40,394 bases of DNA from an uncultured Elusimicrobia bacterium. GTDB lineage: Bacteria > Elusimicrobiota > Elusimicrobia > Elusimicrobiales > Elusimicrobiaceae. The position numbers and the translations under genes were made by a program. The DNA lies in contig CAMZGO010000014.1 in NCBI GenBank assembly GCA_947306425.1, positions 1 through 40,394 on the forward strand. Reading direction: 5' to 3'. Under the pieces are notes generated by a model. The model made no database searches. It had not been told where the DNA came from and worked only from the letters and a program-made list of their open reading frames with translations. Positions 21,672 to 38,209 of this stretch are shown piece by piece. The stretch's first letter is position 1; each line of letters begins with the position of its first letter.

Positions 21672-21921
21672 TAAAAACGGCTGGGATACTCGAGCCAGTT
21701 CCAATGTCTCAAGCCATCACAGCCGTAGTTCACCGCTAAAAACGATAAACATTAAACACAAAACAAAGGGATTATAAGTTCCTTCATTTTGTGTCTTTTT
21801 CGGCTGTTTTTGGATTGGAACTGGACTCCTATTTCTAAGAATACATCCGTTATTACGGTTACCAAAAACAGATTGAATTATTTTAGGGTTTTTAACCCTA
21901 CATTAATAATAAAACTCCTTT
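21672..21921 (-). ncRNA. Structured leader RNA upstream of licD (family member 1, with long pseudoknot)
   Basis: Order on the minus strand: AAGGAG and ATG-TAG at the 5' end (21915-21920; 21898-21903); hairpin AGGGTT/AACCCT; stem P1 of 10 bp (21862-21871 with 21804-21813) enclosing small hairpins; pseudoknot strand 21814-21824; P2 ACACAAAA/TTTTGTGT (21756-21763 with 21787-21794); P3 of 8 bp (21728-21735 with 21743-21750); P4 ACGGCTG/CAGCCGT (21677-21683 with 21720-21726). The P4 loop (21695-21705) is perfectly complementary over 11 bases to 21814-21824. The same plan recurs at 37952-38209 with compensatory changes. It ends about 20 bases before the licD ribosome-binding site. Confidence 0.7.
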
Positions 21922-21926
21922 TAAAT

Positions 21927-21955
21927 ATAATAACAATTTTTAAATACTTTGTAAA
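21927..21955 (-). promoter_or_regulatory. Promoter of the licD leader RNA
   Basis: TTTACA (21950-21955) and TATTAT (21927-21932) on the minus strand are separated by 17 bases. The expected start near 21920 coincides with the AAGGAG that opens the conserved RNA. Confidence 0.65.
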
Positions 21956-21969
21956 TAATAGCTAAAATT

Positions 21970-22617
21970 TTAATATTCTTTTACGCGGTAGGAATCTTTT
22001 AATTTGCGTATCGTCATTTTATAAACTTCGGAGATTAAGTTCTTTAAATACTTTTCTGTTTCTTTTGGATGTTTAATATATGCTTCGCACATAAACCATG
22101 CTTGGGCCATTTGGGAATAATAATGCTTAGGTTTTATTTTTAAAACAGCTGCCAAAACTTTTTTAAAATAGGGACTGTTTATATAGTAAGCACGGGACAA
22201 ATTAAATGCGGTTCTTTGTTTAAATTCCCTTTTGCTTTTTAAATTTTTTAATACAAGCGGCAAAAATATTTCTTGATGTTTTTTTAGTATTTTTAAATCA
22301 GCACAAAAGGCATCACAAACACTCCAATTTGAAATTTCCGGAATAAAATTTTCTACCAAAATTTTAGCTTCTTCAGGAGATATTTGTTTGCAAACGCGCG
22401 CAATTAAAATACCTTTTAAAAAATATTCTTCAAAATATTTTGCCTTATAATTTTTACAATAATTTTGTGCTTCTTCAAACGTAAATGTTTTTGCGTAAGC
22501 CCTTATTTTCGGAACTCTAACACCCAAAATATAATTTACCCCAGGTAAAAGCCCTGAGGTAAATTTTTGATATTTTTCATCGGCAAGTTTTTTAAAATCT
22601 TGCAATATATTGTGCAT
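21970..22617 (-). CDS. AlkD-like DNA alkylation repair protein
   Basis: 215 residues of ALK-type HEAT repeats. Family features are GVRVPKIRAYAKTF near residue 33, EEYFLKGILIARV, the NWSVCDAFCADL segment (about 110) and the basic stretch around SKREFKQRTAFNL. AlkD enzymes remove positively charged alkylated bases from DNA without flipping them. The stop lies in an AT-rich gap after the licD leader; the start is three bases from the preceding stop of the beta-barrel gene, suggesting cotranscription. Confidence 0.85.
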   Translation of the reverse strand: MHNILQDFKKLADEKYQKFTSGLLPGVNYILGVRVPKIRAYAKTFTFEEAQNYCKNYKAKYFEEYFLKGILIARVCKQISPEEAKILVENFIPEISNWSVCDAFCADLKILKKHQEIFLPLVLKNLKSKREFKQRTAFNLSRAYYINSPYFKKVLAAVLKIKPKHYYSQMAQAWFMCEAYIKHPKETEKYLKNLISEVYKMTIRKLKDSYRVKEY

Positions 22618-22620
22618 ATT

Positions 22621-23508
22621 TTATTCAACGACAACGGGCTGGGCTTCTTTAAACAATTTGCTAAATGAGAATGAAACCCCGACATAAACATTTTGCCCTC
22701 TGGGCCCAACATATTTACCTTGTGCCGTAAAATAATTTATAAAAGGCGCAACTGAAAAATTTTTCCACACCAATACTTCCATACGTGCATCAAGTTCCAA
22801 AGAATAATCAAGGTCCGTTTTTTGTTTTATGCTCTCGTGCAAATAATCGCGCCAAATACCTTTAAACACCGCTTTTACTCCTTCACGAACAGGAACATTC
22901 ACCTCAAACCCTGCAGCCCAACCGAATTTAGAAGAATGTTGCGGGTAAGTAAAATCTTCTTCAAACAAGCCGGACACATAGAGTAACTTCAAATACTCAC
23001 CTTCAAATAATTTTGCACCGCCCTCACCACGCAAAACTTTCTTTAAGGGGGCATCACCGGTACTATTAAATTCCGTTTCATAAGCAGCTAAAAGATATGG
23101 GCCGGCTTCAAAACCGCCTAAAAAATTCTCAATATTCCACAAACGTAAAGTGTAAGCGGTATCTACAATAATTCTGTCTACAGATTCCGTAGTCATTTTT
23201 GTGCCGTCCGTTTGTTTAATAGTACTTTTCCCATACTCAGCAAGTAAACCGTTGGACCACAAATAACGGCGGGCAAAATAATCGGCCTTAAAATTTAAAG
23301 CGCCTTGCAAAGTGGTTTGACTGTCTGCCGTCAGTCGTGCATCGGCAAAGTCTTCGTAATCTTTGGCATGATTTACACTGGTTGATGTTACATTTAACCC
23401 AAGGCGCTCAAGGTCAAGCTGCCAGCCGCGGCGTGTATTTTCTTTTGCAAAAGAGTTTGCACTTAAACACAATAAAACGGCAAGCAAAATGGTTTTTGTT
23501 ATTTTCAT
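22621..23508 (-). CDS. Predicted outer-membrane beta-barrel protein
   Basis: 295 residues. Sec signal peptide (MKITKTILLAVLLCLSANSFA, cleaved after Ala21), then alternating aromatic/polar beta strands throughout, such as LDYSLELDARMEVLVW and NVYVGVSFSFSKLF. The composition and length fit a 12-stranded-type barrel of the DUF481/DUF3187-like kind; the exact family was not identified. The C-terminal extension after the last strand (KEAQPVVVE) is atypical, because barrels usually end in Phe. AGGAG precedes the ATG. Role unknown. Confidence 0.65.
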   Translation of the reverse strand: MKITKTILLAVLLCLSANSFAKENTRRGWQLDLERLGLNVTSTSVNHAKDYEDFADARLTADSQTTLQGALNFKADYFARRYLWSNGLLAEYGKSTIKQTDGTKMTTESVDRIIVDTAYTLRLWNIENFLGGFEAGPYLLAAYETEFNSTGDAPLKKVLRGEGGAKLFEGEYLKLLYVSGLFEEDFTYPQHSSKFGWAAGFEVNVPVREGVKAVFKGIWRDYLHESIKQKTDLDYSLELDARMEVLVWKNFSVAPFINYFTAQGKYVGPRGQNVYVGVSFSFSKLFKEAQPVVVE

Positions 23509-23612
23509 AATATCTCCTAAACTATTTATTTATCTTCTACATTTTATAATAAAATAACCGCGGTGTAAAATTTTATGTTATAATAAATTATACTGTTATA
23601 AAGGGGTATAAA

Positions 23613-24602
23613 ATGCTTAACTTTAATGGAATTGTAGATACTAACTTCTCTCTAATGGAATCAATAAATATTTACAGGAATATGGCGATAGAACTGTTTG
23701 TTCCGATTTTCAAAACGGCAATAATTTCTGTTATTTTTATATTTTTCGGGCAGGCAGTTTTGGCTTTATTGCCGAATAGTAATGTCAATAATATTTGTTT
23801 TTGGGTTTGGACTTGGTTTGTTTTTTCCATAGCAATAGCCTCGTTTTTTAAAACATCGGAAGATATTGTTTTAAATAAAACTGCCCAGATTTATGCTAAT
23901 ATTTCACATACACTAATGGTAGCCGTAAAATTATTTACTGTTACTGCTATTATTGCATTGGTTTTGGCCTTACTGGTACTACCTGCATTTTATATTAAAA
24001 ACCCATTATTTTCTCTACCCTATAAAGCCCTTGTAACAATATTTATTATTGCTGCTTTGCCATTTATTTATTTTGCCCCTTTAGCAGTTGCGTTAAGAGA
24101 AGCAAATATTATAAACAGTTTCACTTTCAGTTATTATATGACCTTAGAAAGATGGGGATTGGTTACAAAATCAATTTTAACCCAAATTATATTTGTGGCA
24201 ATAATTGCCTTCTTGGTTTACTTTGTGGTATCTTTATTATTCTTCCCAAACAGCCCTGATTTTTTTGACTTTATCTTTACAAATGCACCTGCACTCAGCG
24301 AGCAAGCACGCAACCTTTATGTACGCTTTGTATTATGGGAGGCAATACAAATTTTTATTTTTACTTTGATTAGTGCAGTATTCGTTGGGGCAAATACTGT
24401 TTTATTCCTATTTTTAGAGGGGTCAATACATAAAATAACAAAAAATGATAAAAGGAAGAAAAATGATAAACGAGATTCAAAAAGTAACAAAGATGTTAAA
24501 TATATCAATATATTAAAAAGCAGTAAAACTGTTGTTATTGACCCTAACCATGAAGAAGAGTATTTTAAAGAAAATAAGAATAAAAAACATCATAAAAAAT
24601 AA
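23613..24602 (+). CDS. Polytopic membrane protein of unknown function with basic C-terminal tail
   Basis: 329 residues with about six membrane helices up to residue 270. A strongly charged cytoplasmic tail of about 55 residues follows, rich in Lys, Asn, Asp and ending KNKKHHKK. No motif is recognised. The spacing of helices and a LALREANIINSFTFSYYMTLERWG loop resemble DUF-type integral membrane proteins with a conserved glycine/proline-rich half. AAGGGG lies before the ATG. It is divergent from the beta-barrel gene and followed after 41 bases by another unknown gene. Confidence 0.55.
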   Translation: MLNFNGIVDTNFSLMESINIYRNMAIELFVPIFKTAIISVIFIFFGQAVLALLPNSNVNNICFWVWTWFVFSIAIASFFKTSEDIVLNKTAQIYANISHTLMVAVKLFTVTAIIALVLALLVLPAFYIKNPLFSLPYKALVTIFIIAALPFIYFAPLAVALREANIINSFTFSYYMTLERWGLVTKSILTQIIFVAIIAFLVYFVVSLLFFPNSPDFFDFIFTNAPALSEQARNLYVRFVLWEAIQIFIFTLISAVFVGANTVLFLFLEGSIHKITKNDKRKKNDKRDSKSNKDVKYINILKSSKTVVIDPNHEEEYFKENKNKKHHKK

Positions 24603-24643
24603 CTTTATTGAGCAGTAATTGATTAATCATTAACGGTGATTTT

Positions 24644-25072
24644 ATGACCTTTTTTTTAACAGATGCAGAAAAAATCCAATTATCCTTGTTTAAATTAATT
24701 GCTAAAAAAACATCCTGTTGTTTACAAGAGGATAATTATACTAAACAAGATATTTCAAACACCGAATGCCAGTGTATTTTATTGTTTATCAGGAAACTTT
24801 GCCAAGTGTATAAGGATTTAAAAAATAATTCCAAACAAACGGAAGAAATTAAAAAAGCGATAATTTCCCACTTCAAAATAATATATCATACAGAGATACA
24901 AAAAACAATAAAAGAAGAAATAAAGAAATTTATTGAATCACCAACTCCGAAACAATGTGATAGAATAATTTCAGCAATTTATGATTTAGATATTGAAGAC
25001 TTTTCCGTATATATTATTTCTTCTTTAATTACGCATATCAACCGCGGGAATCCAAAACGAACCGTTGAATAA
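24644..25072 (+). CDS. Hypothetical helical protein
   Basis: 142 residues, soluble and mostly helical, with cysteines at CC (about 25-26), CQC (about 43-45) and LCQ. No family recognised. ACGGTGA precedes the ATG as a weak ribosome-binding site. It probably belongs to the transcript of the membrane protein upstream and converges with the SirB1-like gene, 10 bases apart. Confidence 0.45.
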   Translation: MTFFLTDAEKIQLSLFKLIAKKTSCCLQEDNYTKQDISNTECQCILLFIRKLCQVYKDLKNNSKQTEEIKKAIISHFKIIYHTEIQKTIKEEIKKFIESPTPKQCDRIISAIYDLDIEDFSVYIISSLITHINRGNPKRTVE

Positions 25073-25082
25073 TACTGCTAAC

Positions 25083-25697
25083 CTACAGGCACTGTTCAAT
25101 TATATTTTGAACAGTTTGTTTTTTGTCAGAGCGATTTTGTTTTCCGTACAAATATATCAAATTGGAAAGTAAATGCCTAATGATTTGTTTTGTACTTAAA
25201 ATTTGCAAATTATTAGTTATGTCACTGTTTAAGGTAAAAATACCTTTTTTGCTGATTTCAATAAAAATACTGGGGAAATTATATTCCTTTCTAAAACAAA
25301 CTATCGGCTGCCCCTTATATAAGGTCAAAAAGGCAGGTGTATTAAAATTTTGTGCAAGTAATAAATACAAAACACCCATAAATAAAGTGGTTGTTTTGCG
25401 GGTTCTGATAACTTGTTTTAAGGATAATTGGTTTTCATTTGACAAATTTGTTATTTCAAATCCCAATTTATCAAATAGAACCATACGGAAAATTTCTGCC
25501 TTTTCCTCGGTAGTAGATTCTTCCTGCAAATAAGGTGATATTTCTCCGCAAAGTAAATTAAAAACAAAGTCCATCTCCCCCCTTTTTAAAGAAGGGTTTA
25601 GAAACATCTCAAGCAAAGTAATCCCTTTTGAAAGAGAAGGAGTATATAAGGAAAAATAATCCTTAAATAAACATTGTAATTTGTTTTCCTGCGTCAT
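25083..25697 (-). CDS. Uncharacterised protein, possibly SirB1/transglutaminase-like
   Basis: 204 residues. The middle reads RTRKTTTLFMGVLYLLLAQNFNTPAFL followed by KGQPIVCFRKE. This recalls the N-terminal SirB1 domain pattern (N-P-x-x-L-x-x-LY-x-x-LA followed by a GHF-like turn), but the catalytic-type residues are not clearly present. Its ATG overlaps the era stop as ATGA, so it is translated right after era. If the SirB1 link is right, it may be a degenerate transglutaminase fold. Confidence in that assignment is low. Confidence 0.5.
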   Translation of the reverse strand: MTQENKLQCLFKDYFSLYTPSLSKGITLLEMFLNPSLKRGEMDFVFNLLCGEISPYLQEESTTEEKAEIFRMVLFDKLGFEITNLSNENQLSLKQVIRTRKTTTLFMGVLYLLLAQNFNTPAFLTLYKGQPIVCFRKEYNFPSIFIEISKKGIFTLNSDITNNLQILSTKQIIRHLLSNLIYLYGKQNRSDKKQTVQNIIEQCL

Positions 25698-26605
25698 TCA
25701 ATAAAACCAAATCTTCTTAGGTATTTATCATCGTTACGCCAAGAAGGACTAACTTGAACTTGAAGTTCCAGACGGTATTTCTGGCCTAAAAATGCACAAA
25801 TTCTTTCTTGTGCGGAAGTACGGAGTTTTGCAATAGCCGCACCGCCTTTACCGATAATTATGGGCTTTTGGCCTTCCCTTTCTACGTGTATTATGGCGCG
25901 AATATAATTCTTATCGCCTAGGTCTTCTGTAAATTTTTCAATTTCCACAGTGGTGGAATAAGGTATTTCCTGATTATATTGCAAAAATATTTGCTCTCGT
26001 ATAAATTCAGCGATATAAAACCTTTCCCAACGGTCCGTAAGCTGTCCCTTAGGGAAATAGGGGGGATTAAAAGGAATATAATTTACCACTTCCCTTTCAA
26101 GTTCCTGCACACCCTTATTCTGTTTTGCGCTGACCATAAAAATCTTGCTTATTTGCAATTCTTTTAATAGGGTATTTGCAATTTTACTTAAAGTGTCTTT
26201 ATCTTGAACCAAATCAATTTTATTTATTACCAAAAACAATGGGCAATTAAGTTCTTTTAGTTTAATTATCAAAGGTGCATGTTTTGCAAGTGCTTGGGTT
26301 GCATCATAAACAAATATTACTAAATCGGCATCTTGCGTTATGGCTTGGTTTAAAGAGTTTAGCATAATTTCCTGCAATTTATACTCAGCATGCAGAAAAC
26401 CGGGAGTATCCACAAAAACAATTTGATAGTTTTCCCCCTCGCAAATGGCCAATATATTTTGGCGGGTTGTTTGCGGTTTATGAGTTACGGGTGATAAATC
26501 CACCCCCGCGAATTTATTTAGTAAAGTTGATTTTCCGGCATTGGCCAAACCGGCCATTACGGCAAAACCGCTTTTGAAATTTGGGTATTTGGAAAATATG
26601 TCCAT
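25694..26605 (-). CDS. era: GTPase Era
   Basis: A 303-residue ribosome-assembly GTPase that binds the 3' end of 16S rRNA. G1 AGLANAGKST (about 18-27), G3 DTPGF, G4 NKID and G5 SAK are present; the C-terminal KH domain has IIGKGGAAIAKLRTSAQ near residue 250-267. Full length for the family. Translationally coupled to the following SirB1-like gene by a four-base overlap, and divergent from the NfeD gene. Confidence 0.97.
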   Translation of the reverse strand: MDIFSKYPNFKSGFAVMAGLANAGKSTLLNKFAGVDLSPVTHKPQTTRQNILAICEGENYQIVFVDTPGFLHAEYKLQEIMLNSLNQAITQDADLVIFVYDATQALAKHAPLIIKLKELNCPLFLVINKIDLVQDKDTLSKIANTLLKELQISKIFMVSAKQNKGVQELEREVVNYIPFNPPYFPKGQLTDRWERFYIAEFIREQIFLQYNQEIPYSTTVEIEKFTEDLGDKNYIRAIIHVEREGQKPIIIGKGGAAIAKLRTSAQERICAFLGQKYRLELQVQVSPSWRNDDKYLRRFGFIE

Positions 26606-26668
26606 AATTAATTTTACAATTTTATTTCCTTTTATGCTAAAATATATTTGAATTTAAAAGGAGGATGT

Positions 26669-27091
26669 ATGTCTTACGTAATTTGGCTCGTTATAGGTTT
26701 TTTGTTACTTATTGGGGAAATTTTTACTCTGGATTTCTCTCTAAGCTGCATTGGCCTTGCTTTTATGTCCGCAGGGCTTATAGCCTGGCTTGGGTTTAAC
26801 ATATATTGGCAGCTTATCACAGTATGTGTAATATTGATAGTTTTATTCTTTACATTGCGCCCCTTTATCTTAAAGCATATTGCAAGAAAACAAGAATATA
26901 AAAGCAATATTGATGCCTTAGTCGGTACCAAACACAATTTTTATTCTCTTAAAGAGGATAAAAAACATGCCCTCATTAAAATTGATGGTGATGTGTGGGA
27001 AGCAGAAAGTACAGTCCCCCTCGCAGAAGGTAAAATCGTTAAAATAGTAAAAATTGAAGGCAGTACTTTAATAATTAAACAGGAGGATTAG
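26669..27091 (+). CDS. NfeD-like membrane protein
   Basis: 140 residues from ATG 26669, which has a perfect AAGGAGG upstream. Two to three membrane helices are followed by a C-terminal OB-fold domain (LVGTKHNFYS to the end), the short NfeD1b arrangement. NfeD proteins act with stomatin-like partners in membrane-domain organisation. The SPFH gene follows after three bases, its ribosome-binding site lying in the end of this one. Confidence 0.9.
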   Translation: MSYVIWLVIGFLLLIGEIFTLDFSLSCIGLAFMSAGLIAWLGFNIYWQLITVCVILIVLFFTLRPFILKHIARKQEYKSNIDALVGTKHNFYSLKEDKKHALIKIDGDVWEAESTVPLAEGKIVKIVKIEGSTLIIKQED

Positions 27092-27094
27092 TTT

Positions 27095-28069
27095 ATGGGT
27101 CTTATAGCAGTACTAGTTGTAGCAGTTGTATTTTTCATAATTATGGCTTTTGCCGGTTTTACGCAAGTGCAACAAGCGCAAGTTATGATTGTTGAGCGTT
27201 TGGGCAGTTATTACACGACCTTACACTCCGGGTTACATTATATAATTCCAATAATTGATAAACCACGTCATATAGAATGGAAATTTACCCGTGAAATTTA
27301 TGGAAAAAACGCTTCTTATATAGGCATGATTGACAGAATTGATTTGCGCGAAACAGTTTATGATTTCCCAAGCCAAGATGTTATTACACGCGATAACGTC
27401 AATATCAAAATCAATGCTTTGATTTATTTCCAAATTACCGATCCGTTAAGGGCGACCTATGAAGTTGCTTCTTTGCCGACAGCTATTGAGAAATTAACGC
27501 AAACAACCTTAAGGAACGTTATAGGTGAACTTACTTTGGACCAAACATTGACTTCTCGTGATACAATTAACTCAAAACTCCGCACAATTTTGGATGCCGC
27601 ATCAAATAAATGGGGTGTTAAAGTTAACCGCGTTGAGTTGCAAGATATTACACCGCCTCCATCAATCCGCGAAGCTATGGAAAAAGAAAAGAAAGCCGAA
27701 CAGGAAAGACGTGCTATTATCTTGGAATCAGAAGGTGAAAAACGCTCAAAAATCTTGCGCGCCGAGGGTGAAAAGGAAGCCCAAATCAATAAAGCGGAAG
27801 GTGAAAAACGCGCCCGCATCTTGGAAGCTGAAGGTTTTGCAGAAGCAAAAATCCGCGTAGCAGAAGCTGAAAAGCAAGCAGTTAAAATTGTTGCTGAAGC
27901 GGTTTCCCAATACTCAAACCCGGCCAATTATGTAATCTCAATTAAATATATTGAAGCTTTACAAAAAATGGTTGAAGGTAAAGATAATAAGTTAGTTTAT
28001 ATGCCTTATGAAGCCACCGGTATTTTAGGTGCAGTAGGTGCAGTAAAAGAACTTATTACAAAAAAATAA
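27095..28069 (+). CDS. Stomatin/SPFH-family protein (QmcA-like)
   Basis: 324 residues. One N-terminal membrane helix (about 3-22), an SPFH domain (FTQVQQAQVMIVERLGSYY onward), then a long helical region with repeated EGE/AEGEK units (about 205-265), typical of stomatin-type oligomers. AGGAGG before the ATG. Pairing with NfeD is the usual operon. It probably forms large membrane cages or microdomains that restrain membrane proteases or other clients. Confidence 0.92.
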   Translation: MGLIAVLVVAVVFFIIMAFAGFTQVQQAQVMIVERLGSYYTTLHSGLHYIIPIIDKPRHIEWKFTREIYGKNASYIGMIDRIDLRETVYDFPSQDVITRDNVNIKINALIYFQITDPLRATYEVASLPTAIEKLTQTTLRNVIGELTLDQTLTSRDTINSKLRTILDAASNKWGVKVNRVELQDITPPPSIREAMEKEKKAEQERRAIILESEGEKRSKILRAEGEKEAQINKAEGEKRARILEAEGFAEAKIRVAEAEKQAVKIVAEAVSQYSNPANYVISIKYIEALQKMVEGKDNKLVYMPYEATGILGAVGAVKELITKK

Positions 28070-28086
28070 ATAACTTAATATTTATA

Positions 28087-28120
28087 AAAACCCTGATGAT
28101 TTTTCATCAGGGTTTTTTAA
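28087..28120. terminator. Bidirectional rho-independent terminator
   Basis: AAAACCCTGATGA pairs with TCATCAGGGTTTT around a TTTT loop, with T runs on both strands. It ends the nfeD-stomatin transcript and the convergent TPR lipoprotein transcript. Confidence 0.9.
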
Positions 28121-28162
28121 ATTAAGATAATAACGGATAAGCCTGTTTGTTTAAAACTTTAA

Positions 28163-30332: not shown

Positions 30333-30335
30333 GAT

Positions 30336-31979
30336 TTACGCTTTTACGGCGGCCTCTTTAGCAGCTTTTTCAGCGGCTTTGGCGGCCTCTTCCTCTTTGA
30401 ATTTCAAAATGGCTTCTTTGCGAAGTTCACGTTTCAAAATTTTGCGCATGGAATTTTTAGGCAATTCTTTTTTAAATTCTATATCACGCGGACGTTTGTA
30501 ATTATCAAGATTAGTTTTTAAATATTTTCTAAAGTCAGACTCATTAAACTCTATTCCGCGTTTTTTAACGGCATAAAGTTTTATAAATTCCCCTCCATGC
30601 CCGTCCGGTACTCCGATAACTGCACATTCTTCAATACCGGGGTATTCCATTATAGTATGTTCTACCTGCGCGGAAAACACTTTTAAACCCTTGATAATAA
30701 TCATATCTTTTAAGCGGTCTTTAATTACTATAAAACCCTCATTATCAATCAACCCGACATCGCCGGATTTAAACCAACCGTCTTTATCAAAAGCATCTGC
30801 CGTAGCCTGAGGGTTTAAGTGATATCCCTTAAAAACATTATCCCCTTTTATAACTATTTCGCCTTCCACATTTCTAGGAAGCTCATTACCTTCTTCATCA
30901 ATAATACGCACTTTAACGTAAGGCAAGTTTATGCCTACGGTGCCATGTTTCCTGTTTTGTTCCGTATTAACACTGACAATAGGGCTTGTTTCTGTTAAGC
31001 CATATCCTTCCAAGATTGGTATATCAAGTTGTTTTTCAAAATGTTCCTTGGTTTCCTTGCTCAGCGGGGCTGCACCGGAAATACAAAAACGTACTTTCCT
31101 AAAAGCCCAATATTGCAAATAAATACGCTTCAAACCTTTTGCTTCTTTTGACAAAACACTGTAAATTTGCGGTATTGCCGTCATAACGGTAATGCGCTCA
31201 CGCCCCATTAAATTGAGCCAGGCTGCTGCAGGGGTAATATTGCCTACTACAACTGTTTTCATCCCAACTGTCAGGGGAATAATAACATTAACCGTCCATG
31301 CCAAAGTATGAAACATCGGTAAAATACAAAGCATGGAATCTTCTTCGGAAATCTTAAAAGAAAGTACCGCCGCTATCACATTTGACATTATATTTTTATG
31401 GGACAACATCACCCCTTTCGGCAAACCGGTGGTACCTGAAGTATAAAGCAACATGGCAGTATCTTCAATACTAGGGTGACAGTTTAAAGTTTCGGAATTA
31501 AATTTACTGTTTTTAACTTCTTCCCAAAATAATTTGATACTCCCGTCCGTTACCATTGAGGCGGCACTTGAAGAAATTTCGTCAGTAGTAAAGATATATT
31601 TTACATTAGGTAAATCTTTTTTAATTGCGGCATAATGGCGCAAAAATTCTGCCTGGGTAACTACTGCCTTTGCACCGCTGTTTGTAAGCATATATTTAAG
31701 CTCTTCCGGTTTTGAAACCATAAAATTTATCGGCAAACTAATGGCACCGATTTTATAAAGAGCATAGTTTGTTATAATCGTCTCAACGGAATTACGATGG
31801 GCGACAGCAACATGATCCCCTTTCCTGATACCGTAGGCCCAAAGCATATCTGAAGCACGGTCTATAGTCATCAATAATTCGTGGAAAGACCAAGTCTTTC
31901 CGTTAAACACAACGGCCGGGGCTTCCGGTCTGCGGTAGGCGCTGGCAGTCAGCGCTGTGTATAAATCAGTCATCTGCAT
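30336..31979 (-). CDS. AMP-forming acyl-CoA synthetase (long-chain fatty acid-CoA ligase type)
   Basis: 547 residues from ATG 31979; a longer frame starts with TTG at 31997. ANL-superfamily motifs: YTSGTTGLPKGVMLSHKN (about 195-212), GYGLTETSP, GWFKSGDVG and the catalytic C-terminal Lys region KNSMRKILKRELR. It activates a carboxylic acid through acyl-AMP to acyl-CoA. The last 25 residues form an Ala/Glu/Lys helix (EEEAAKAAEKAAKEAAVKA) beyond the usual end of the family. Start near a TAAAATAT box without a ribosome-binding site; possibly leaderless. Confidence 0.88.
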   Translation of the reverse strand: MQMTDLYTALTASAYRRPEAPAVVFNGKTWSFHELLMTIDRASDMLWAYGIRKGDHVAVAHRNSVETIITNYALYKIGAISLPINFMVSKPEELKYMLTNSGAKAVVTQAEFLRHYAAIKKDLPNVKYIFTTDEISSSAASMVTDGSIKLFWEEVKNSKFNSETLNCHPSIEDTAMLLYTSGTTGLPKGVMLSHKNIMSNVIAAVLSFKISEEDSMLCILPMFHTLAWTVNVIIPLTVGMKTVVVGNITPAAAWLNLMGRERITVMTAIPQIYSVLSKEAKGLKRIYLQYWAFRKVRFCISGAAPLSKETKEHFEKQLDIPILEGYGLTETSPIVSVNTEQNRKHGTVGINLPYVKVRIIDEEGNELPRNVEGEIVIKGDNVFKGYHLNPQATADAFDKDGWFKSGDVGLIDNEGFIVIKDRLKDMIIIKGLKVFSAQVEHTIMEYPGIEECAVIGVPDGHGGEFIKLYAVKKRGIEFNESDFRKYLKTNLDNYKRPRDIEFKKELPKNSMRKILKRELRKEAILKFKEEEAAKAAEKAAKEAAVKA

Positions 31980-32141
31980 ACTTTTATATTTTAGCAATTA
32001 TGAAGTTGTGTTTCAAATAATAGACATTCTTATTTGACATTCTGGGTCTTAACGTAGTTTTCAAATTTACGGAACGCACTTGCAAAGCATAGATATTATT
32101 ATTTACTGCCTTTACATGTGTTTATTTTTACGATGATGTAC

Positions 32142-32172
32142 TTGACTTGTTTTTTTTTTTTTTTTGTATAAT
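32142..32172 (+). promoter_or_regulatory. Pilin 3 promoter with a T16 tract in the spacer
   Basis: TTGACT (32142-32147) and TATAAT (32167-32172) are separated by 19 bases, of which 32150-32165 are sixteen consecutive T. Loss of two T would give the ideal 17-base spacer. The layout is that of slipped-strand phase-variable promoters. Confidence 0.6.
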
Positions 32173-32223
32173 TTCAGTGTAAAGATATTTAAAAGCACTA
32201 TATAAGTTAAATCAGGAGAGTTT

Positions 32224-32769
32224 ATGAAGAAAATAAAAATATGTATTCAAGGTTTTACTTTAATTGAACTGTTGGTGGTTGTTTTAATTATTGGTATACT
32301 TGCCGGTATTGCTTTGCCCCAATATAAACAAGCAGTAGACAGAACTGAATTTGCCCGACTTCAAGCGCAAGCAAAAAGTTTAGTTGATGCTTATTCCCGT
32401 TATTACCTGTCCGGAAATAAATTTGCAAATAGTGGCACTGAATATTTTGACTATATGGACGTTGATTTCCCTTACGAAAAGCAAAAGGGCGGCTACGGTT
32501 ACAGATGCCGTATTAACGCCGATAATTATTGTTGTATATCGCCTTTATATTCAGATTCTGTATATTGTGCTAAAACAAATTATAGGTTTGGTATATGGAT
32601 ACACTCTATTACTACTACTCCCAAAACTTGGTGTGTAGCTAAACAAGATGACCCCAGGGCACTTAAACTATGTGAAAAATTATGGGATAGAAATAAAAAT
32701 TGGCAAGGTACCGGCTTTTTAACACCAGACGGCATATCTGCTGCAACACATAAGCAATATCCTATATAA
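32224..32769 (+). CDS. Type IV pilin-like / pseudopilin protein (pilin 3)
   Basis: 181 residues. Leader MKKIKICIQG, cleavage between G10 and F11, then [16 protein letters not shown] and Glu at mature position 5. The variable globular part has cysteines at CRIN, CC, CAK, CVA and CEK. AGGAGAG precedes the ATG. The gene is single, on the opposite strand from the other four pilins, and driven by the T16-spacer promoter described above. Its C-terminal half differs from the others, but a shared theme with pilins 2 and 4 is CC/YC and W/Y-rich surface loops. No terminator seen after it. Confidence 0.9.
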   Translation: MKKIKICIQGFTLIELLVVVLIIGILAGIALPQYKQAVDRTEFARLQAQAKSLVDAYSRYYLSGNKFANSGTEYFDYMDVDFPYEKQKGGYGYRCRINADNYCCISPLYSDSVYCAKTNYRFGIWIHSITTTPKTWCVAKQDDPRALKLCEKLWDRNKNWQGTGFLTPDGISAATHKQYPI

Positions 32770-32908
32770 GTTGAAACATAAACTTTTTAAAAAATCCGAT
32801 AGAAGCAGTAAGGGAGTATGGAAGAAATATATTATCCTCTTTATTTTAGCAAGAAAATGCACATTGAATTACAAAATTCATAACATTAACTATTACAACA
32901 AAAGCCTA

Positions 32909-32937
32909 TTGAAATTACAGCCTTAAATTTGTAATAT
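32909..32937 (+). promoter_or_regulatory. Promoter of the serC-serA-DUF1015 run
   Basis: TTGAAA (32909-32914) and TAATAT (32932-32937) are 17 bases apart. A leader of about 25 bases with GAGAGGTG follows before serC. Confidence 0.55.
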
Positions 32938-32969
32938 AACTGTATAGAATTTAAAAGAGAGGTGAAAAT

Positions 32970-34136
32970 ATGGCAGTTACTTTTAAAAAAGAGGATCTCC
33001 CTACATCGACTTTTGCCTGCGGGCCTTCTCAAGGACACCCGCAAATACGTAAAACCCCTGTTTGTGATATGATGTTTGAAAGAAGCCACCGTGCCGGCGA
33101 CATATCAACAAAAGGCTTATATCACGAAGCAACCGAAAATTTAAAAAAATTACTAAATTTACCTGCCGATTATACCATTATTTTCTTTCTTGGAGGTGCA
33201 ACACCGGCTTTGGATTCAGTTGCATGGAACTTAACAAAAAAATCAATTTCCGGTTTAAGTTTCGGTGCTTTTTCAAAAATGTGGTGTAAGAAAATCGCCT
33301 CCTGTCTTGAAGATGATGTAAAAAAAGATTTCAAAGAACCGGCAGAGGGCGAATTTTTCCCTAAAGAAAAGCCCGATTTTAATGCAAGTTTAGTGGTAAT
33401 GACACCTAATGAAACCTCCGTAGGCGTACAAATACCGGATGAATATTTAAAAGAAGCGTGGGCAAAAAAGGGGCCTGATACTTTAATTGCATGGGATTGT
33501 ACCTCCTGTGCAGGCGGCCGCGCTTTACCTGAAAATTGTTTTGATGTCATGGTGTTTTCCATGCAAAAATGTTTTGGCGTGGGAGGCGGTTCAAGTGTAA
33601 TGATTTTAAGCCCAAAAGCCGTAGCGCGTGTTGAAGAAGTTAAAAAAATAAGGCGTGTTCCGTATAGTTTAGATTTAACGGAAACCATAAAAAAAGCACA
33701 AGAAAAATTCCAAACACTAAATACGCCCTCTACCATAAATATTTGGATGTTTAACGAGGCATGTAAATGGATGCTTTCACGCGGCGGTATTAAAGCAATG
33801 GACGCACTTTGCAAAACACATGCAAATTATATTTTGGATTTTGCAGCAAAAACAGACTACTTAAAACCATTGGTTGATAAAGCGGAAAACCGCTCATACA
33901 CCACCGTTACTTTGGCTATTACTGATGATAAAATCGTTGATGCCGATATTTCCGCCGCTTTAAAAGCAACGGGTATGCCAAATTTACAAGACGGCATTAA
34001 AAAATATTCTTCCGTTAAGCAGAATTCTTTAAGAATTGCCTGCTTCCCGTTCGTTGATATTGACGGCGTGGAACAGTACCAGAAACTTTTTAATGCAGTG
34101 GATAAAATCGTAAAAGATTTAAGGAGTGCAAAATGA
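32970..34136 (+). CDS. serC: Phosphoserine aminotransferase
   Basis: A 388-residue PLP enzyme converting 3-phosphohydroxypyruvate and glutamate to phosphoserine and 2-oxoglutarate. FACGPSQGHPQIR near the N-terminus, ERSHRAGD (substrate binding), and SMQKCFG with the PLP-binding Lys (about residue 195). The length and the ACGPSQGHP start fit the Methanosarcina-type branch of SerC rather than the E. coli type. GAGAGGTG precedes the ATG. Its stop overlaps the serA start as ATGA. Confidence 0.92.
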   Translation: MAVTFKKEDLPTSTFACGPSQGHPQIRKTPVCDMMFERSHRAGDISTKGLYHEATENLKKLLNLPADYTIIFFLGGATPALDSVAWNLTKKSISGLSFGAFSKMWCKKIASCLEDDVKKDFKEPAEGEFFPKEKPDFNASLVVMTPNETSVGVQIPDEYLKEAWAKKGPDTLIAWDCTSCAGGRALPENCFDVMVFSMQKCFGVGGGSSVMILSPKAVARVEEVKKIRRVPYSLDLTETIKKAQEKFQTLNTPSTINIWMFNEACKWMLSRGGIKAMDALCKTHANYILDFAAKTDYLKPLVDKAENRSYTTVTLAITDDKIVDADISAALKATGMPNLQDGIKKYSSVKQNSLRIACFPFVDIDGVEQYQKLFNAVDKIVKDLRSAK

Positions 34137-35083
34137 AGATTTTGATTGCAGATAAATTCCCCCAGCATTGGCAGGATGTTTTGGCGCAAAATAATGAAGT
34201 AACTTTTGCACCGAAACTTGACGAAAACACTTTACCAGCCGAAATTAAAGATAATGAAATTTTAATAGTCAGAAGTACAAAAGTTACACCTGCGGTTATA
34301 GATGCGGGTTCTGCTTTAAAACTTATTATCCGCGCAGGGGCCGGCTATGATACTATTGACACCGCTTATGCAGCCAAAAAAGGGATTGCCGTATGTAATT
34401 GCCCGGGTACAAATTCACTCGCGGTTGCGGAACTTGCCATGGCCCTAATGCTTGCGCTTGACAGGCGCATTTATAATAATGTACGTGATTTACGCGACGG
34501 TAAATGGAATAAAACAGAATATTCCAAAGCACGCGGTATCTTTGGCAGGAAACTTGGAATTTTAGGATTTGGCAATATCGGCAAAGCCGTTGCAAAGCGT
34601 GCAGATTCCTTCGGACTTGAAATTTATGTTTATGACCCTTATGCCAAAGATGAAACTTTAGAACAATTTAAGGCAAAGCGTATACAAGATATCTATGAAC
34701 TTGCAAAAACCGTTGATATTATAACTGTTCATTTGCCTTCTACCGAGGAAACAAAGGGCCTTTTCAATAAAAAATTCTTTGATAACATGAAAGAAGGTGC
34801 CTATTTTATAAATACGGCACGCGGTAATTTAGTAAATACTAAAGATTTGGTGGAAATATTAAAAACCGGTAAAATAAGGGCAGCAATGGATGTTTATGAA
34901 AATGAGCCGAAAGCCGCCGATACCGTTTTTGATAAAACAATTTTTGAAGGCCTTGAAAATTTTTACGGTACACATCATATCGGTGCTTCTACCGACCAAG
35001 CACAAGATGCCGTTGCCGAAATGGCGGTGCAAATCGTCAATGAATATAACAAAGACAAGACCTTTTTACACAAGGTAAATTAG
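34133..35083 (+). CDS. serA: D-3-phosphoglycerate dehydrogenase (short form)
   Basis: A 316-residue NAD-dependent 2-hydroxyacid dehydrogenase for the first step of serine synthesis. Rossmann motif GFGNIGKAVAKR (about 143-154), catalytic Arg (NTARGNLV) and Glu (DVYENEP), and the active-site His in GTHHIGASTDQA. There is no ACT regulatory domain, so it is the short form. It starts four bases before the serC stop. Identity as PGDH rather than another hydroxyacid dehydrogenase rests largely on the serC neighbour. Confidence 0.88.
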   Translation: MKILIADKFPQHWQDVLAQNNEVTFAPKLDENTLPAEIKDNEILIVRSTKVTPAVIDAGSALKLIIRAGAGYDTIDTAYAAKKGIAVCNCPGTNSLAVAELAMALMLALDRRIYNNVRDLRDGKWNKTEYSKARGIFGRKLGILGFGNIGKAVAKRADSFGLEIYVYDPYAKDETLEQFKAKRIQDIYELAKTVDIITVHLPSTEETKGLFNKKFFDNMKEGAYFINTARGNLVNTKDLVEILKTGKIRAAMDVYENEPKAADTVFDKTIFEGLENFYGTHHIGASTDQAQDAVAEMAVQIVNEYNKDKTFLHKVN

Positions 35084-35090
35084 GTGATTT

Positions 35091-36323
35091 ATGGCAATAA
35101 TTAAACCTTTCAAAGCATATCGCCCCGCTAAAAATGCGGAAAAAATTGCCTGCCCGCCTTACGACGTAATTTCAAGTAAAGAAGCCCGTAAAATGGCGGA
35201 AGGTAATCCCGTTTCCTTTTTACATATTGACAAGCCGGAAATTGATTTACCTGAGGAAACAGACCTTTATGATAGTTCCGTTTATGCCAAAGGGCGTGAA
35301 AATTTAGATAAATTCATCGCACAAGGTATTTTGAAAGAAGAAGAAAAACCGTGCTTTTATGTTTACGCACAAACAATGAACGGACGCACGCAGTACGGCC
35401 TTGTTGCCGCGACATCAACAGAAGAATATGATAAAGGACTTATAAGAAAACATGAATTAACCCGCAAAGATAAAGAAGAAGACCGTACACGTCATATTCA
35501 AACCTTAGAAGCAACAACAGGCCCTGTATTTTTAACTTATCCCGATAATACACAAATAAACACACTTGTAGCAGAAATTTGTAAAGCAAAGCCGGTTTAT
35601 AACTTTACTACCGAAGATAATATTACACATCAGATATGGATTGTTTCGGAAGAAAATACTATAAAAGTACTTGAGGAAGAATTTAAAAATATTCCGCTTT
35701 TATATGTCGCAGATGGGCATCATAGGTCTGCCTCCGCGTCAAACAATGCACGCCAAAAACGTGCAAAGAATCCTAATCATACAGGTATGGAAAGTTATAA
35801 TTATTTCTTATCTGTAATATTCCCGGCAAGCCATTTGTATATTATGGCTTATAACCGTTTAGTTAAAGATTTGAACGGTTTAAGCGAAGAACAATTCTTT
35901 AATGCACTAAAACAAAATTTTGAAATTGAAAAGACGTCTTTGCAAGTTCCGCCGGCACGTCATAAATTTTGTATGTACATTGACAAAAGTTGGTATCTTC
36001 TTACAACGAAACCGTCTGCGATTGATGAAAACAATGCTGTGGAAAGTTTAGATGTTTCTATCTTACAAAATAAAGTTCTTGCACCTTTACTTGCCATTGA
36101 GGACCCGCGCACCGATAAACGTATTAATTTTGTAGGCGGTATACGCGGTACAAAGGAACTTATGAACAAGGTGGACAGCGGTAAATATAAAATAGCATTT
36201 TCAATGTACCCGACAAGTATTGAAGAACTAATTAAAGTAGCAGATAAAAACTTGATAATGCCCCCGAAATCCACTTGGTTTGAACCGAAACTCAGAAGCG
36301 GTTTGCTTATTTATAAATATTGA
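35091..36323 (+). CDS. DUF1015 family protein
   Basis: 410 residues. Family signatures are KPFKAYRPA..ACPPYDVISS at the start, LIRKHELTRKDKEEDR (about 122-137) and YVADGHHRSASA (about 205-216). The biochemical function of the family is not settled. It is often seen beside serA and serC, and here no serB is present, so a role at the phosphoserine/serine step is a reasonable guess. It starts seven bases after serA, with a terminator directly behind it. Confidence 0.88.
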   Translation: MAIIKPFKAYRPAKNAEKIACPPYDVISSKEARKMAEGNPVSFLHIDKPEIDLPEETDLYDSSVYAKGRENLDKFIAQGILKEEEKPCFYVYAQTMNGRTQYGLVAATSTEEYDKGLIRKHELTRKDKEEDRTRHIQTLEATTGPVFLTYPDNTQINTLVAEICKAKPVYNFTTEDNITHQIWIVSEENTIKVLEEEFKNIPLLYVADGHHRSASASNNARQKRAKNPNHTGMESYNYFLSVIFPASHLYIMAYNRLVKDLNGLSEEQFFNALKQNFEIEKTSLQVPPARHKFCMYIDKSWYLLTTKPSAIDENNAVESLDVSILQNKVLAPLLAIEDPRTDKRINFVGGIRGTKELMNKVDSGKYKIAFSMYPTSIEELIKVADKNLIMPPKSTWFEPKLRSGLLIYKY

Positions 36324-36326
36324 TTT

Positions 36327-36355
36327 AAAACCCCATATAAGTATGGGGTTTTAAA
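36327..36355. terminator. Rho-independent terminator after the serine operon
   Basis: AAAACCCCA and TGGGGTTTT form a 9-bp stem around an 8-base loop, with T-rich ends on both strands. It also faces the minus-strand tRNA-Met transcript. Confidence 0.85.
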
Positions 36356-36383
36356 ATCTATACCAAAGATATTTTCTCAAGGT

Positions 36384-36450
36384 AAAGTATAACGGGTTAA
36401 CTAGCCCGCAGGGCGGATATATCGGAAGCTAAAGAAAAAACAAAAATTAA
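36384..36450. other. Small GC hairpin region before tRNA-Met, of unknown role
   Basis: A short stretch with hairpins GGG/CCC and GCCC/GGGC, then ATCGGAAGC. The following AATTAACCGAAAAGACAAAG resembles the flank of the 140-bp repeats (AATTTACCGAAAAGACGAAG at about 40030). It may be a decayed single copy of that repeat. No gene is seen in 36356-36476. Confidence 0.3.
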
Positions 36451-36476
36451 CCGAAAAGACAAAGACAAAAAAAATT

Positions 36477-36549
36477 GTCACCGAGTGGAATTGAACCACT
36501 GACCTGGCGCTTATGAAACGCCCGCTCTAACCATCTGAGCTACGGTGAC
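36477..36549 (-). tRNA. tRNA-Met (anticodon CAT; elongator Met or tRNA-Ile2)
   Basis: On the minus strand the acceptor GTCACCG pairs with CGGTGAC. The anticodon stem GGCGT/GCGCC carries the loop TTCATAA, and the T-arm has GTTCAATTC. A paired first base excludes an initiator tRNA. CAT could be elongator Met or lysidine-modified Ile2; sequence alone does not decide. No CCA. A T-rich run follows. Confidence 0.9.
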
Positions 36550-36646
36550 TTAAATCTTACCTTTATATTATAGCAAAATTTTTACAATCTTTCAAAATTT
36601 TTGTTAAGGCTTAAAAACATTAATACTAATATCAATAACAATTTAT

Positions 36647-36676
36647 TTGACAATATGCTTTAAAAAATTTTATCAT
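36647..36676 (+). promoter_or_regulatory. Promoter of the nitroreductase gene
   Basis: TTGACA (36647-36652) and TATCAT (36671-36676) are separated by 18 bases. A perfect 7-bp inverted repeat lies just downstream. Confidence 0.5.
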
Positions 36677-36683
36677 TATCAAT

Positions 36684-36701
36684 ATAACCAATAATGGTTA
36701 T
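36684..36701 (+). promoter_or_regulatory. Operator-like inverted repeat before the nitroreductase gene
   Basis: ATAACCA-ATAA-TGGTTAT is a perfect 18-base dyad between the -10 box and the ribosome-binding site, where a repressor would block transcription. The cognate regulator is not in this window. Confidence 0.5.
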
Positions 36702-36717
36702 GTCAGGGGGATAAATT

Positions 36718-37311
36718 ATGAACTTTACTGAAATTATAAAAAAGCGCCGTTCTTGTTACAACTTAGGACCGCTGTCCGTAGAAAAACAAAAGCAAATACC
36801 GGCAATTTTAAAAGAATGTATCCTTGCAGCACCAACGCCGTTTAACAGCCAAAGCGCACGCGTGATTTTGCTTGAAAATAAAAATCATAAACAATTTTGG
36901 AATATCGTTTTGGAAACTTTAAGGCAAAGGGTTCAACCCGAAAATTTTGCATCGGTACAAGAAAAAATTACTGCATTCGCCGCAAGCAGCGGAACAATTT
37001 TATATTTTGAAGATACGGTTATAACCAGAAATTTGGAAAAGCAATACCCGGCTTATGCTGTCAATTTCCCGATATGGGCTGCCCAGGCAAACGGTATGCT
37101 TCAATTTTCAATTTGGTGCTCCTTAGCCGAACAGAATATAGGGGCAAGTTTGCAACACTATAATCCGATAATTGATGAAAAAGTACATAAAACTTTCAAG
37201 ATACCTGCCACCTGGCGTTTAATTGCACAAATGCCCTTTGGGGAAATTTTAAGCGCACCGCAAGATAAAACTTTTGAACCGATTGAAAAGCGCTTAAAAA
37301 TTTTTAATTAA
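36718..37311 (+). CDS. Nitroreductase family protein (Frm2/Hbn1-like)
   Basis: 197 residues. An FMN-dependent oxidoreductase fold, with KKRRSCYNLGPLS at the N-terminus, APTPFNSQSARVILL (FMN-binding region, about 38-52), and the central IWAAQANGMLQFSIWCSLAEQNIGASLQHYNP. These match the small nitroreductases related to Frm2/Hbn1, induced by stress or lipids in yeast and bacteria. A strong GGGGG ribosome-binding site precedes the ATG. It has its own promoter and an operator-like dyad. Confidence 0.85.
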   Translation: MNFTEIIKKRRSCYNLGPLSVEKQKQIPAILKECILAAPTPFNSQSARVILLENKNHKQFWNIVLETLRQRVQPENFASVQEKITAFAASSGTILYFEDTVITRNLEKQYPAYAVNFPIWAAQANGMLQFSIWCSLAEQNIGASLQHYNPIIDEKVHKTFKIPATWRLIAQMPFGEILSAPQDKTFEPIEKRLKIFN

Positions 37312-37337
37312 AAAAATTTTGCATATTAAGCCAATTT

Positions 37338-37883
37338 TTAATTTAGGTAATATTCGCCCCAAGCTTCTTCATCACCGTTTATTAATTTTCCACCAAGTGC
37401 TTTACAAACTCTGTGTCCTTTATTACCACTGGCATAGCAAATTATTTTATTACGATATTCATCGCTAGGATCATCTGATTGATACATAGTAATACGAAAG
37501 TAATTATTATTATCTATATCTCTATCACAATATACATAGCCTGTATCTTCTTCATTTGCCATACAATACCAATAATCATTCCAACATTCGCGCCCGATTT
37601 CATCACATTCCCAATCACTCGGCCAAGAAACACCTACATCATCTGCAGTGGGAATATCACACCACACTTCAGAATGTATCACTTTACAATAACTGCCGTG
37701 AATAAGTTTCCATTCAGCCAATGCATCATACCATCTTCTCATTAAGGGTAAAATACTTGCAACTTTTGCTTTTGTTAACGCCATTTTATATTGCGGTAAG
37801 GCAATACCGGCAAGTATGCCAATAATTAAAACAACTACTAATAATTCAATTAAAGTAAAACCTTTTTTGTAACTTTTAAACAT
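37338..37883 (-). CDS. Type IV pilin-like / pseudopilin protein (pilin 4)
   Basis: 181 residues. Leader MFKSYKKG, cleavage between G8 and F9, then [16 protein letters not shown] with Glu at mature position 5. The globular part is rich in Trp, Asp and Cys (YCK, WCD, ECD, ECW, YCMA, YCD, ICY, VCK), about eight cysteines, more than in the others. The net charge is acidic. AAGGAG precedes the ATG. It is preceded by a mini-ORF (37914-37928) and by the structured RNA 37952-38209, which make up its leader. Confidence 0.9.
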   Translation of the reverse strand: MFKSYKKGFTLIELLVVVLIIGILAGIALPQYKMALTKAKVASILPLMRRWYDALAEWKLIHGSYCKVIHSEVWCDIPTADDVGVSWPSDWECDEIGRECWNDYWYCMANEEDTGYVYCDRDIDNNNYFRITMYQSDDPSDEYRNKIICYASGNKGHRVCKALGGKLINGDEEAWGEYYLN

Positions 37884-37913
37884 TTTCGTTCTCCTTAAAT
37901 TTAATTTGTACTG

Positions 37914-37928
37914 CTATTTATGCTTCAT
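37914..37928 (-). CDS. Possible four-codon leader ORF upstream of pilin 4
   Basis: A perfect AGGAGG (37934-37939) lies five bases before ATG AAG CAT AAA TAG, encoding only M-K-H-K. The pilin 4 ribosome-binding site follows shortly. The strong site on so short an ORF suggests a role in ribosome loading or leader control, but chance cannot be excluded. Confidence 0.35.
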   Translation of the reverse strand: MKHK

Positions 37929-37951
37929 CTGCACCTCCTAATTTAATAAAT

Positions 37952-38209
37952 TAAAAACGGCTGTCATACTATGGATTGCAAGAAACATAGTAAAACAGCC
38001 GTAATTTGCCGTTCGTGAGAACGGCAAATATTAAGTACAAAACATACGGTTAATTAGTCCATCTATTTTGTACTTTATAACGACTGTTTTCTAGGTCTTG
38101 CAATCATTTCGCTTTTGCGAAATTTAACCTTTTCAGGTTCCCTAAAAAACAGATTAAATTTTTTTAAGCCAAATATTTTTTGCGGCTTACATAAAAATAA
38201 AACTCCTTT
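37952..38209 (-). ncRNA. Structured leader RNA upstream of pilin 4 (family member 2, with long pseudoknot)
   Basis: Order on the minus strand: AAGGAG (38203-38208) and ATG-TAA (38187-38192); hairpin AAGCC/GGCTT; P1 of 12 bp (38141-38152 with 38084-38095, one G-U) enclosing AACCT/AGGTT and ATTTCGC/GCGAAAT hairpins; pseudoknot strand 38096-38105; P2 of 10 bp (38033-38042 with 38066-38075); P3 of 11 bp (38004-38014 with 38019-38029); P4 ACGGCTGT/ACAGCCGT (37957-37964 with 37995-38002) and inner ACTATG/CATAGT. The P4 loop GATTGCAAGA (37974-37983) pairs perfectly with 38096-38105. Same plan as 21672-21921. Confidence 0.7.

Follow-up and report, generated by a model that had tools for sequence, protein, structure and literature searches.

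Two minus-strand elements in a 40,394-nt stretch of DNA from an uncultured Elusimicrobia bacterium (contig CAMZGO010000014.1 of assembly GCA_947306425.1; the whole stretch is called the window below) are members of a large, apparently undescribed family of leader RNAs of ~200 nt, one lying before a licD gene and the other before a pilin gene. We propose, at a probability of about two in three, that the family consists of cis-acting transcription-attenuation leaders with a bistable antiterminator/terminator, a model built on the pairing and folding described here. The original prediction, made from the letters of the window, had described a two-member family with a covarying pseudoknot. What it observed is confirmed, as both elements lie where it had placed them and share their order and spacing, and its interpretation is partly supported.

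Size, structure and distribution of the family

A DNA search of the source genome (1,437,240 bases, 21 contigs) with one copy returned 52 matches, mostly partial. A covariance model, R1, was then built from alignment A2, which kept 19 of the 21 first copies (one without P2 and one divergent copy were dropped), with a structure annotation taken from a single copy. Using R1, 73 matches were found in the 1.44-Mb genome. Of these, 20 were shadows on the opposite strand and another 3 were weak, separate hits (E 0.026 to 0.83); the 50 places that remain have E values from 2.8e-43 at best to 9.5e-6 at weakest. The elements therefore form a family of about 50 members in this genome rather than two. 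To our knowledge, ~50 copies in 1.44 Mb would rank among the densest cis-regulatory RNA families per genome.

R1 also matched 29 of 60 relatives (source genome counted), all within two genera of one family, and 39 of 119 genomes across the phylum, 31 from the same family and 8 from another family (f9), one of the latter with a single weak match only. Under stricter filters, no match outside these two families was found among the 119 genomes. Matches per genome spanned 1 to at least 41 in the search of the 60 relatives, where the best 41 candidates per genome were scored (the best 20 in the search of 119). A pattern scan of genome contigs gave 96 stretches, 80 of which were examined as loci: by their titles, 70 are Elusimicrobi* or Avelusimicrobium, 3 'uncultured bacterium' and 7 other named groups, and R1 confirms 73 of the 80 (79 matches) and none of the 7. 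Viral contigs gave no match to one sequence pattern, and phage and plasmid records no blastn match with one query copy; on these searches, spread by phage or plasmid is unsupported.

Rfam 15 at curated thresholds returned only tRNA and 5S rRNA in the whole window and in 20 further copy-bearing loci, and permissive scans of both window copies gave matches far below threshold only, in line with the earlier statement that no known riboswitch class could be recognised. A literature search, with preprints and most subscription journals outside its range, returned nothing joining Elusimicrobi* with pilin and riboswitch; the titles and opening parts of abstracts on Elusimicrobi* and riboswitches describe no such leader RNA, and no Elusimicrobi* is among the matches listed for structured RNA/covariation or leader/attenuation.

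The predicted folds of the elements exceed chance. Folding z-scores are -6.3 and -7.8 for 150-nt stretches of the two window copies, with 0 of 200 shuffles equally stable. In alignment A4 (85 distinct aligned copies), 95.9% of cells are paired against 76.8% after shuffling, and 58 of the 67 pairs show changes on both sides. The counts below refer to 134 non-redundant copies (50 from the source genome, 84 from relatives) or, with a third batch added, to 189 copies, which mix orthologues and paralogues and do not count independent events; the 10 shadow rows of alignment A3, one cut fragment and identical rows of A4, and five cut fragments of A5 were left out. The stem lengths first given for the window copies are revised, as P2 folds with ~16 bp in the licD copy and 12+4 bp in the pilin copy, and P3 with 10 and 11 bp. 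The P1a loop reads UGNRGAA in 72/189 copies, yet in 2/50 of the source genome; it resembles the lambda boxB loop, and a boxB-like loop as a general protein site was set aside at 2/50.

A hypervariable helix and an alternative pairing of the terminator

In both window copies, the P4 loop pairs exactly with the strand beside P1, as originally claimed: CCAGTTCCAAT with ATTGGAACTGG in the licD copy, and GATTGCAAGA with TCTTGCAATC in the pilin copy (Table 1). This long-range helix, between the strand before the P1 3' half and the P4 loop, has a run of at least 8 bp, G.U allowed, in 130 of 134 non-redundant copies (48/50 in the source genome); with the third batch, 182/189 reach at least 8 bp, and the run is exactly 10 in 97/189. 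The criterion takes the longest run anywhere in both stretches, and in a few copies this run is off the expected register. The mean cognate run is 10.0 bp compared with 6.0 bp for non-cognate strands (13% of which reach 8), and Watson–Crick runs of at least 7 occur in 129/134 cognate and 1.8% of non-cognate combinations. All ten long-range pairs are changed on both sides in A4, with 93.4% of cells paired, which upholds the compensatory evolution proposed for this helix; R1 does not contain it. In 20 later-fetched copies (7 from f9), gathered after the ideas had formed, a Watson–Crick long-range helix of at least 9 bp is present in 20/20, and non-cognate runs of at least 7 in 7/380; three of them (L270, L283, L284) carry 10-mers already present in earlier copies. 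These copies were found with R1, whose letters cover the P2 loops and the switch strands, and therefore only the long-range helix is fairly independent in this set.

Seven copies fall below 8 bp (L091, L105, L063, L159 with 7 bp, L176, L202 with 7 bp, and L226), and L063, L176 and L226 all come from one fragmented assembly. At L063:1501-1708 and L176:1995-2204 the long-range strand and loop are mismatched, each adjoining a second copy, and these are either recombinants or assembly chimeras. The same 10-mer (CTATCGAAGT) occurs in L270 of family f9 and in L073 of the source genus, that is, in distant families, by either transfer or coincidence. Non-cognate Watson–Crick runs of at least 7 occur in 2/2070 combinations within the source genome and 16/6118 between it and others, the latter figure being raised because likely orthologues are included (7 have at least 8); selection for orthogonality of the helix within a genome finds no clear support here.

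The P4 hairpin is an intrinsic terminator, with a core that is 100% paired in A4 and, after it, a U-run of at least 3 in 177/189 copies. The P1 3' strand (CCAAAAACAGYCG) is complementary both to the P1 5' strand (CTGTTTTTGG) and to the P4 5' strand (CGGCTGTT...TTTGG), so that it can close P1 or open the terminator. The helix between the P1 3' and P4 5' strands reaches 98% pairing across 7 bp in A4, and 85.6% of cells are paired over 9 pairs in A3, whose antiterminator figures were computed with the 10 shadow rows still present. P4 has CTAT instead of CTGT in 11 copies, with the matching T in the P1 3' strand in 10 of the 11 (Fisher 3e-10), and the P1 5' strand reads CTAT in 4 copies, all four with CTAT in P4 (6e-6); these p-values are optimistic because the copies are related, and three of the four look like close paralogues. 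In the aligned copies, the CTGT/CTAT change reads as a three-strand covariation of P1 5', P1 3' and P4. In A3, 10 cells are changed on both sides compared with 4.0 after shuffling (2/500 shuffles). Taken at the level of sequence, covariation lends modest support to a mutually exclusive antiterminator. The switch is absent from the original prediction, which did not call P4 a terminator and did not mention the palindromic P2 loop described below.

Folding agrees with two exclusive states. For transcripts ending after the P4 loop, the minimum-energy fold combines the long-range helix with the antiterminator in 177/179 copies, the 10 of 189 without an 8-bp Watson–Crick helix having been left out. 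At full length, 160/179 copies fold with P1, 160/179 with P4 and 19 with the nested helix; the median energy difference is 5.3 kcal/mol in favour of the terminator state, and the antiterminator has the lower energy in 21/179. In the later-fetched set, the cut transcript adopts the helix-plus-antiterminator fold in 19/20, with L278 lacking antiterminator pairs. In this alternative fold the long-range helix is a nested continuation of the antiterminator and not a pseudoknot.

Several observations weigh against attenuation by this switch. The two outer antiterminator pairs are only 63% paired in A4, and the P1 3' change occurs without the P4 change in eleven copies, the reverse in one. The paired fraction of the antiterminator in A4 is 90.4% compared with 90.0% shuffled, and its score is reached by 15/500 shuffles; A3 has 3 pairs with changes on both sides, compared with 2.6 after shuffling (258/500 shuffles). 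Since most changes in this helix are one-sided G.U, its covariation is thin, and its support is weaker than that of the other helices. The folding energies ignore pseudoknots and kinetics, and the analysis found neither a ligand nor a protein or leader peptide. Finally, the 10-bp length, the conserved P4 loop linkers and the scarcity of G.U would be superfluous for an antiterminator alone, so that the long-range helix may also have a pseudoknot role.

The same features speak for a pseudoknotted riboswitch, in which the long-range helix would be a permanent tertiary contact of the P4 loop with the strand stacked on P1, and the fold would be stabilised by a small ligand bound within the P1/P1a/P1b junction: 10 bp is the main length class, the helix abuts P1 without a linker, the P4 loop linkers are conserved in the consensus, and G.U is rare in the helix (10/761 paired cells, compared with 144/1214 in P2, 60/549 in P1b, 19/485 in P1a and 36/594 in P3; hand tally, A4). 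We nevertheless consider a riboswitch of this kind unlikely, since conservation is highest in the letters of the switch strands, the consensus has no clearly invariant junction, and the helix is also nested in the alternative fold; in our judgement, it would also be unusual for a metabolite switch to have ~50 copies upstream of diverse genes in one genome and 1-3 copies in some relatives. Covariation alone cannot separate a tertiary pseudoknot from the nested antiterminator fold. Of the 'tertiary contact' first proposed, the long-range pairing thus stands, and the certainty of a pseudoknot does not.

Two other candidates were rejected. AAGGAG and an ATG-stop, noted originally, are present in both window copies as a minimal frame at the base of P0 after the Shine–Dalgarno sequence. 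A Shine–Dalgarno sequence with ATG-stop is found in 27/134 copies (18/50 of the source genome, 9/84 of the relatives) and another short ATG frame with such a site in 15/134; it is not a family trait, and a start-stop frame as a sensor or leader-peptide attenuator was rejected as such. A NusG paralogue as antiterminator was dropped, as the source genome has one NusG gene and no paralogue.

In the attenuation model, each leader would start near its own promoter, fold P1 (with P1a and P1b inside), P2 and P3, and end in the P4 terminator. The P1 3' strand would be the swing strand: paired with the P1 5' strand, it would leave the P4 terminator free, and the leader would be off; once P4 has been transcribed as far as its first half, the swing strand could pair with the P4 5' strand instead, and the leader would be on. 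In the on state the 10-bp helix would extend the pairing into a nested antiterminator hairpin of ~20-25 bp around P2 and P3. The helix would act as a toehold beside P1, and may persist as a pseudoknot after P1 and P4 re-form. The signal would be something that stabilises or opens P1, and the P2 apical loop would probably kiss a second leader RNA.

A palindrome in the P2 loop

The P2 loop holds a 6-nt Watson–Crick palindrome in 120/185 copies, where 20 are expected from shuffled loop letters (maximum 31 in 200 runs), and in 31 of the 53 distinct loop strings; a 4-nt palindrome is present in 169/185, with 74 expected. Hexamer palindromes in other loops are few (P1a 1/187, P1b 2/178, P3 7/189). 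The cores include TAATTA, TTATAA, TCATGA, TTGCAA, TTCGAA and TCTAGA, and in the 71 loops of 9 nt the hexamer starts at position 3 in 61 (the script's first hit), the remainder having ATTAAT overlapping TAATTA (7) or no hexamer (3). In the later-fetched set the hexamer is found in 17/20 and the tetramer in 20/20, R1 including the P2 loop letters of its 19 seed copies. To judge by these strings, self-complementarity of the loop appears to be kept through compensatory changes.

A 2-bp stem extension with a 2-nt loop is unsupported as an explanation, as the middle is self-complementary in 100 of 121 hexamers with matching outer pairs, and of the 21 others, 20 overlap an adjacent full palindrome (loop list, by reading). 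The palindrome recurs elsewhere in its own RNA in 21/120, compared with 21.3 expected; an intramolecular partner is thus unsupported, and an intermolecular contact is therefore the natural reading. The P2 loops probably make leader–leader RNA dimers by a kissing contact, which gives a simple testable prediction, leader–leader dimers in bacteria. Against dimers, the kissing contact would be weak for most P2 hexamers, given their A+U-rich composition, and the palindrome counts are inflated by shared ancestry. L038, L045, L047 and L052 share a P2 subtype that combines what looks by eye like a loop-E motif (AGUA facing GAA) with a tetraloop of the GACG type or similar; TPR-like genes follow L038 and L052, and a pilin follows L047.

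The 10-bp helix differs in nearly every copy and could in principle form between two molecules by strand swap. One may imagine a self-recognising set, in which the P2 palindromes pair like molecules and the 10-bp helix is the address that separates ~50 leaders, with feedback in trans. We hold this extension to be quite unlikely. If true, terminated leaders would act back in trans on the gene that they precede, and pilins and other surface proteins would be under gene-specific control by RNA alone.

Downstream genes, locus evolution and related systems

The features of the two window copies and their genes are listed in Table 1.

Table 1. Leader RNAs of the window, their parts and the genes that follow them
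Feature	Positions	Strand	Basis or remark
licD leader (L036), whole element	21672..21921	-	core 21672-21871, 161.4 bits with R1
AAGGAG, Shine–Dalgarno-like	21915..21920	-	few bases after -10-like TATTAT (21927-21932, by eye)
P0 hairpin, overlapped by ATG-TAG 21898-21903	21884..21900	-	not family-wide
P1 5' strand (anti-antiterminator)	21862..21871	-	R1 match
P1a hairpin	21847..21858	-	R1 match, limits by eye
P1b hairpin, weak in this copy	21826..21843	-	R1 match, limits by eye
Long-range helix 5' strand, hypervariable (pseudoknot strand of the original prediction)	21814..21824	-	strand/loop pairing
P1 3' strand / antiterminator 5' strand (CCAAAAACAGCCG)	21801..21813	-	folding
P2 hairpin, palindromic apical loop TTATAA 21772-21777 (predicted kissing-dimer loop)	21755..21795	-	folding, loop count
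P3 hairpin	21728..21750	-	folding
P4 intrinsic terminator; loop holds long-range 3' strand (21695-21705); then U-run	21677..21726	-	folding
LicD family gene downstream, ATG 33 nt past element	20721..21638	-	PF04991, 7.7e-42
Pilin leader (L046), whole element	37952..38209	-	core 37952-38152, 138 bits with R1
AAGGAG	38203..38208	-	few bases after -10-like TATACT (38215-38220, by eye)
P0 hairpin, overlapped by ATG-TAA 38187-38192	38165..38189	-	sequence placement
P1 5' strand	38141..38152	-	R1 match
P1a hairpin	38126..38140	-	limits by eye
P1b hairpin	38106..38123	-	limits by eye
Long-range helix 5' strand, hypervariable	38096..38105	-	strand/loop pairing
P1 3' strand / antiterminator 5' strand (CCTAGAAAACAGTCG)	38081..38095	-	folding
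P2 hairpin, palindromic apical loop TAATTA 38051-38056	38033..38075	-	folding, loop count
P3 hairpin	38004..38029	-	folding
P4 intrinsic terminator; long-range loop strand 37974-37983; then U-run	37957..38002	-	folding
Prepilin-like gene (N_methyl) downstream, ATG 68 nt past element	37338..37883	-	PF07963, 2.3e-09

The leaders are linked to genes. A same-strand start was found for 157/189 copies at a median distance of 43 nt, 107 within 60 nt and 137 within 120 nt; near the gene starts there is therefore, we infer, little room for a second promoter. An exact TATAAT or TATACT lies upstream of 115/187 copies, compared with 37 after shuffling. The rule found no start in 25/189 copies, and 7/189 lie at contig ends; some of the 25, L037, L053 and L203 among them, are clearly followed by a gene that is frameshifted or lacks a ribosome site of the expected kind. 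A prepilin-like gene follows at least 92/189 copies by a motif rule that misses some pilins (L228). Other genes follow 51/189 copies, by reading proteins with signal peptides, lipoproteins, glycosyltransferases, LicD and nuclease-like proteins; 8/189 precede a TPR-like family and 6/189 a zinc-ribbon protein. Pfam was run on the two window genes, LicD and N_methyl, and matched both, so that the gene assignments first made hold, as does the suggestion of surface-related targets, downstream genes being often of this kind.

The source genome has 108 matches to the prepilin N_methyl motif in 1.44 Mb, e.g. at 37797-37874 and 39848-39928 (minus strand) of the window, which is a very large pilin-like repertoire. 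By the motif rule 26 of its 50 copies precede a pilin, and therefore about three quarters of the 108 genes are without a leader. Between the terminator and the pilin gene, several copies (L035, L041, L048) have a G+C-rich stretch (CTCCCCGCCCCTTT...), which looks like another repeat family. The leaders would provide the Elusimicrobiota, a phylum that has received little study, with an RNA regulon spanning the genome, for pilins as well as further surface or accessory genes.

An RNA with its own promoter-like site and terminator, and with a P2 palindrome that finds no excess second copy in the same molecule, might also be mainly a free-standing, self-assembling structured RNA like OLE, ROOL and GOLLD, the downstream genes being passengers reached by leaky termination. 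The 137 copies with a same-strand start within 120 nt, the 92 or more pilin-like genes and the existence of an alternative antiterminator pairing make this very unlikely.

In fourteen pairs of copies, the proteins flanking the element on either side resemble each other, orthology being judged by blastp of the flanking frames; two of these pairs are neighbouring copies on one contig. Among the remaining 12 pairs, 4 share the same 10-mer and 8 have wholly different ones, and in 7 of the 8, which were aligned, the further stems differ to a varying degree (45 to 69% identity with flanks). It looks as if the leader element was replaced in place by another copy, as at L193/L213, L191/L221, L048/L145 and L095/L172, where the flanking proteins are alike and the leader copy differs. 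Such loci, together with the high and variable copy number, would suit a DNA-level repeat, mobile or recombinational, with hairpins that serve copying or exchange and not RNA folding. This is extremely improbable: the promoter-terminator-gene order is strand-specific, G.U pairs are tolerated in P1b, P2 and P3, most copies are far too diverged for recent transposition, and viral contigs (one pattern) and phage or plasmid records (one copy, blastn) gave no match.

Intrinsic-terminator attenuators comprise the classical antiterminator/terminator leaders and riboswitch expression platforms. As in these, the P1 3' strand is common to the anti-antiterminator and the antiterminator, and the terminator lies just before the gene; unlike them, the antiterminator of this family is capped by a hypervariable 10-bp helix, the P2 loop is palindromic, and ~50 copies are scattered in one genome, about half before pilin-like genes. 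For OLE, ROOL and GOLLD, which are bacterial structured RNAs, homo-oligomers with kissing loops are documented (PMC12286853). Compared with these larger, ornate RNAs, the leaders are ~200 nt, adjoin genes and have no Rfam match, and they share with them a bacterial origin and kissing loops, predicted in the present case. The dimerisation site of human immunodeficiency virus type 1 (HIV-1) has a 2+6+1 loop, and the P2 apical loop likewise has a central 6-nt palindrome, laid out as 2+6+1 in 9-nt loops. Unlike the viral site, the leader RNA is bacterial and has several different, mostly A+U-rich palindromes, its dimer being predicted from sequence only. As described in PMC7357161, the HIV-1 dimerisation initiation site is a palindromic kissing loop with flanking purines, and a GACG tetraloop kisses in Moloney murine leukaemia and sarcoma viruses (MoMuLV/MoMuSV); similarly, some leader copies bear a GACG tetraloop in place of the palindrome.

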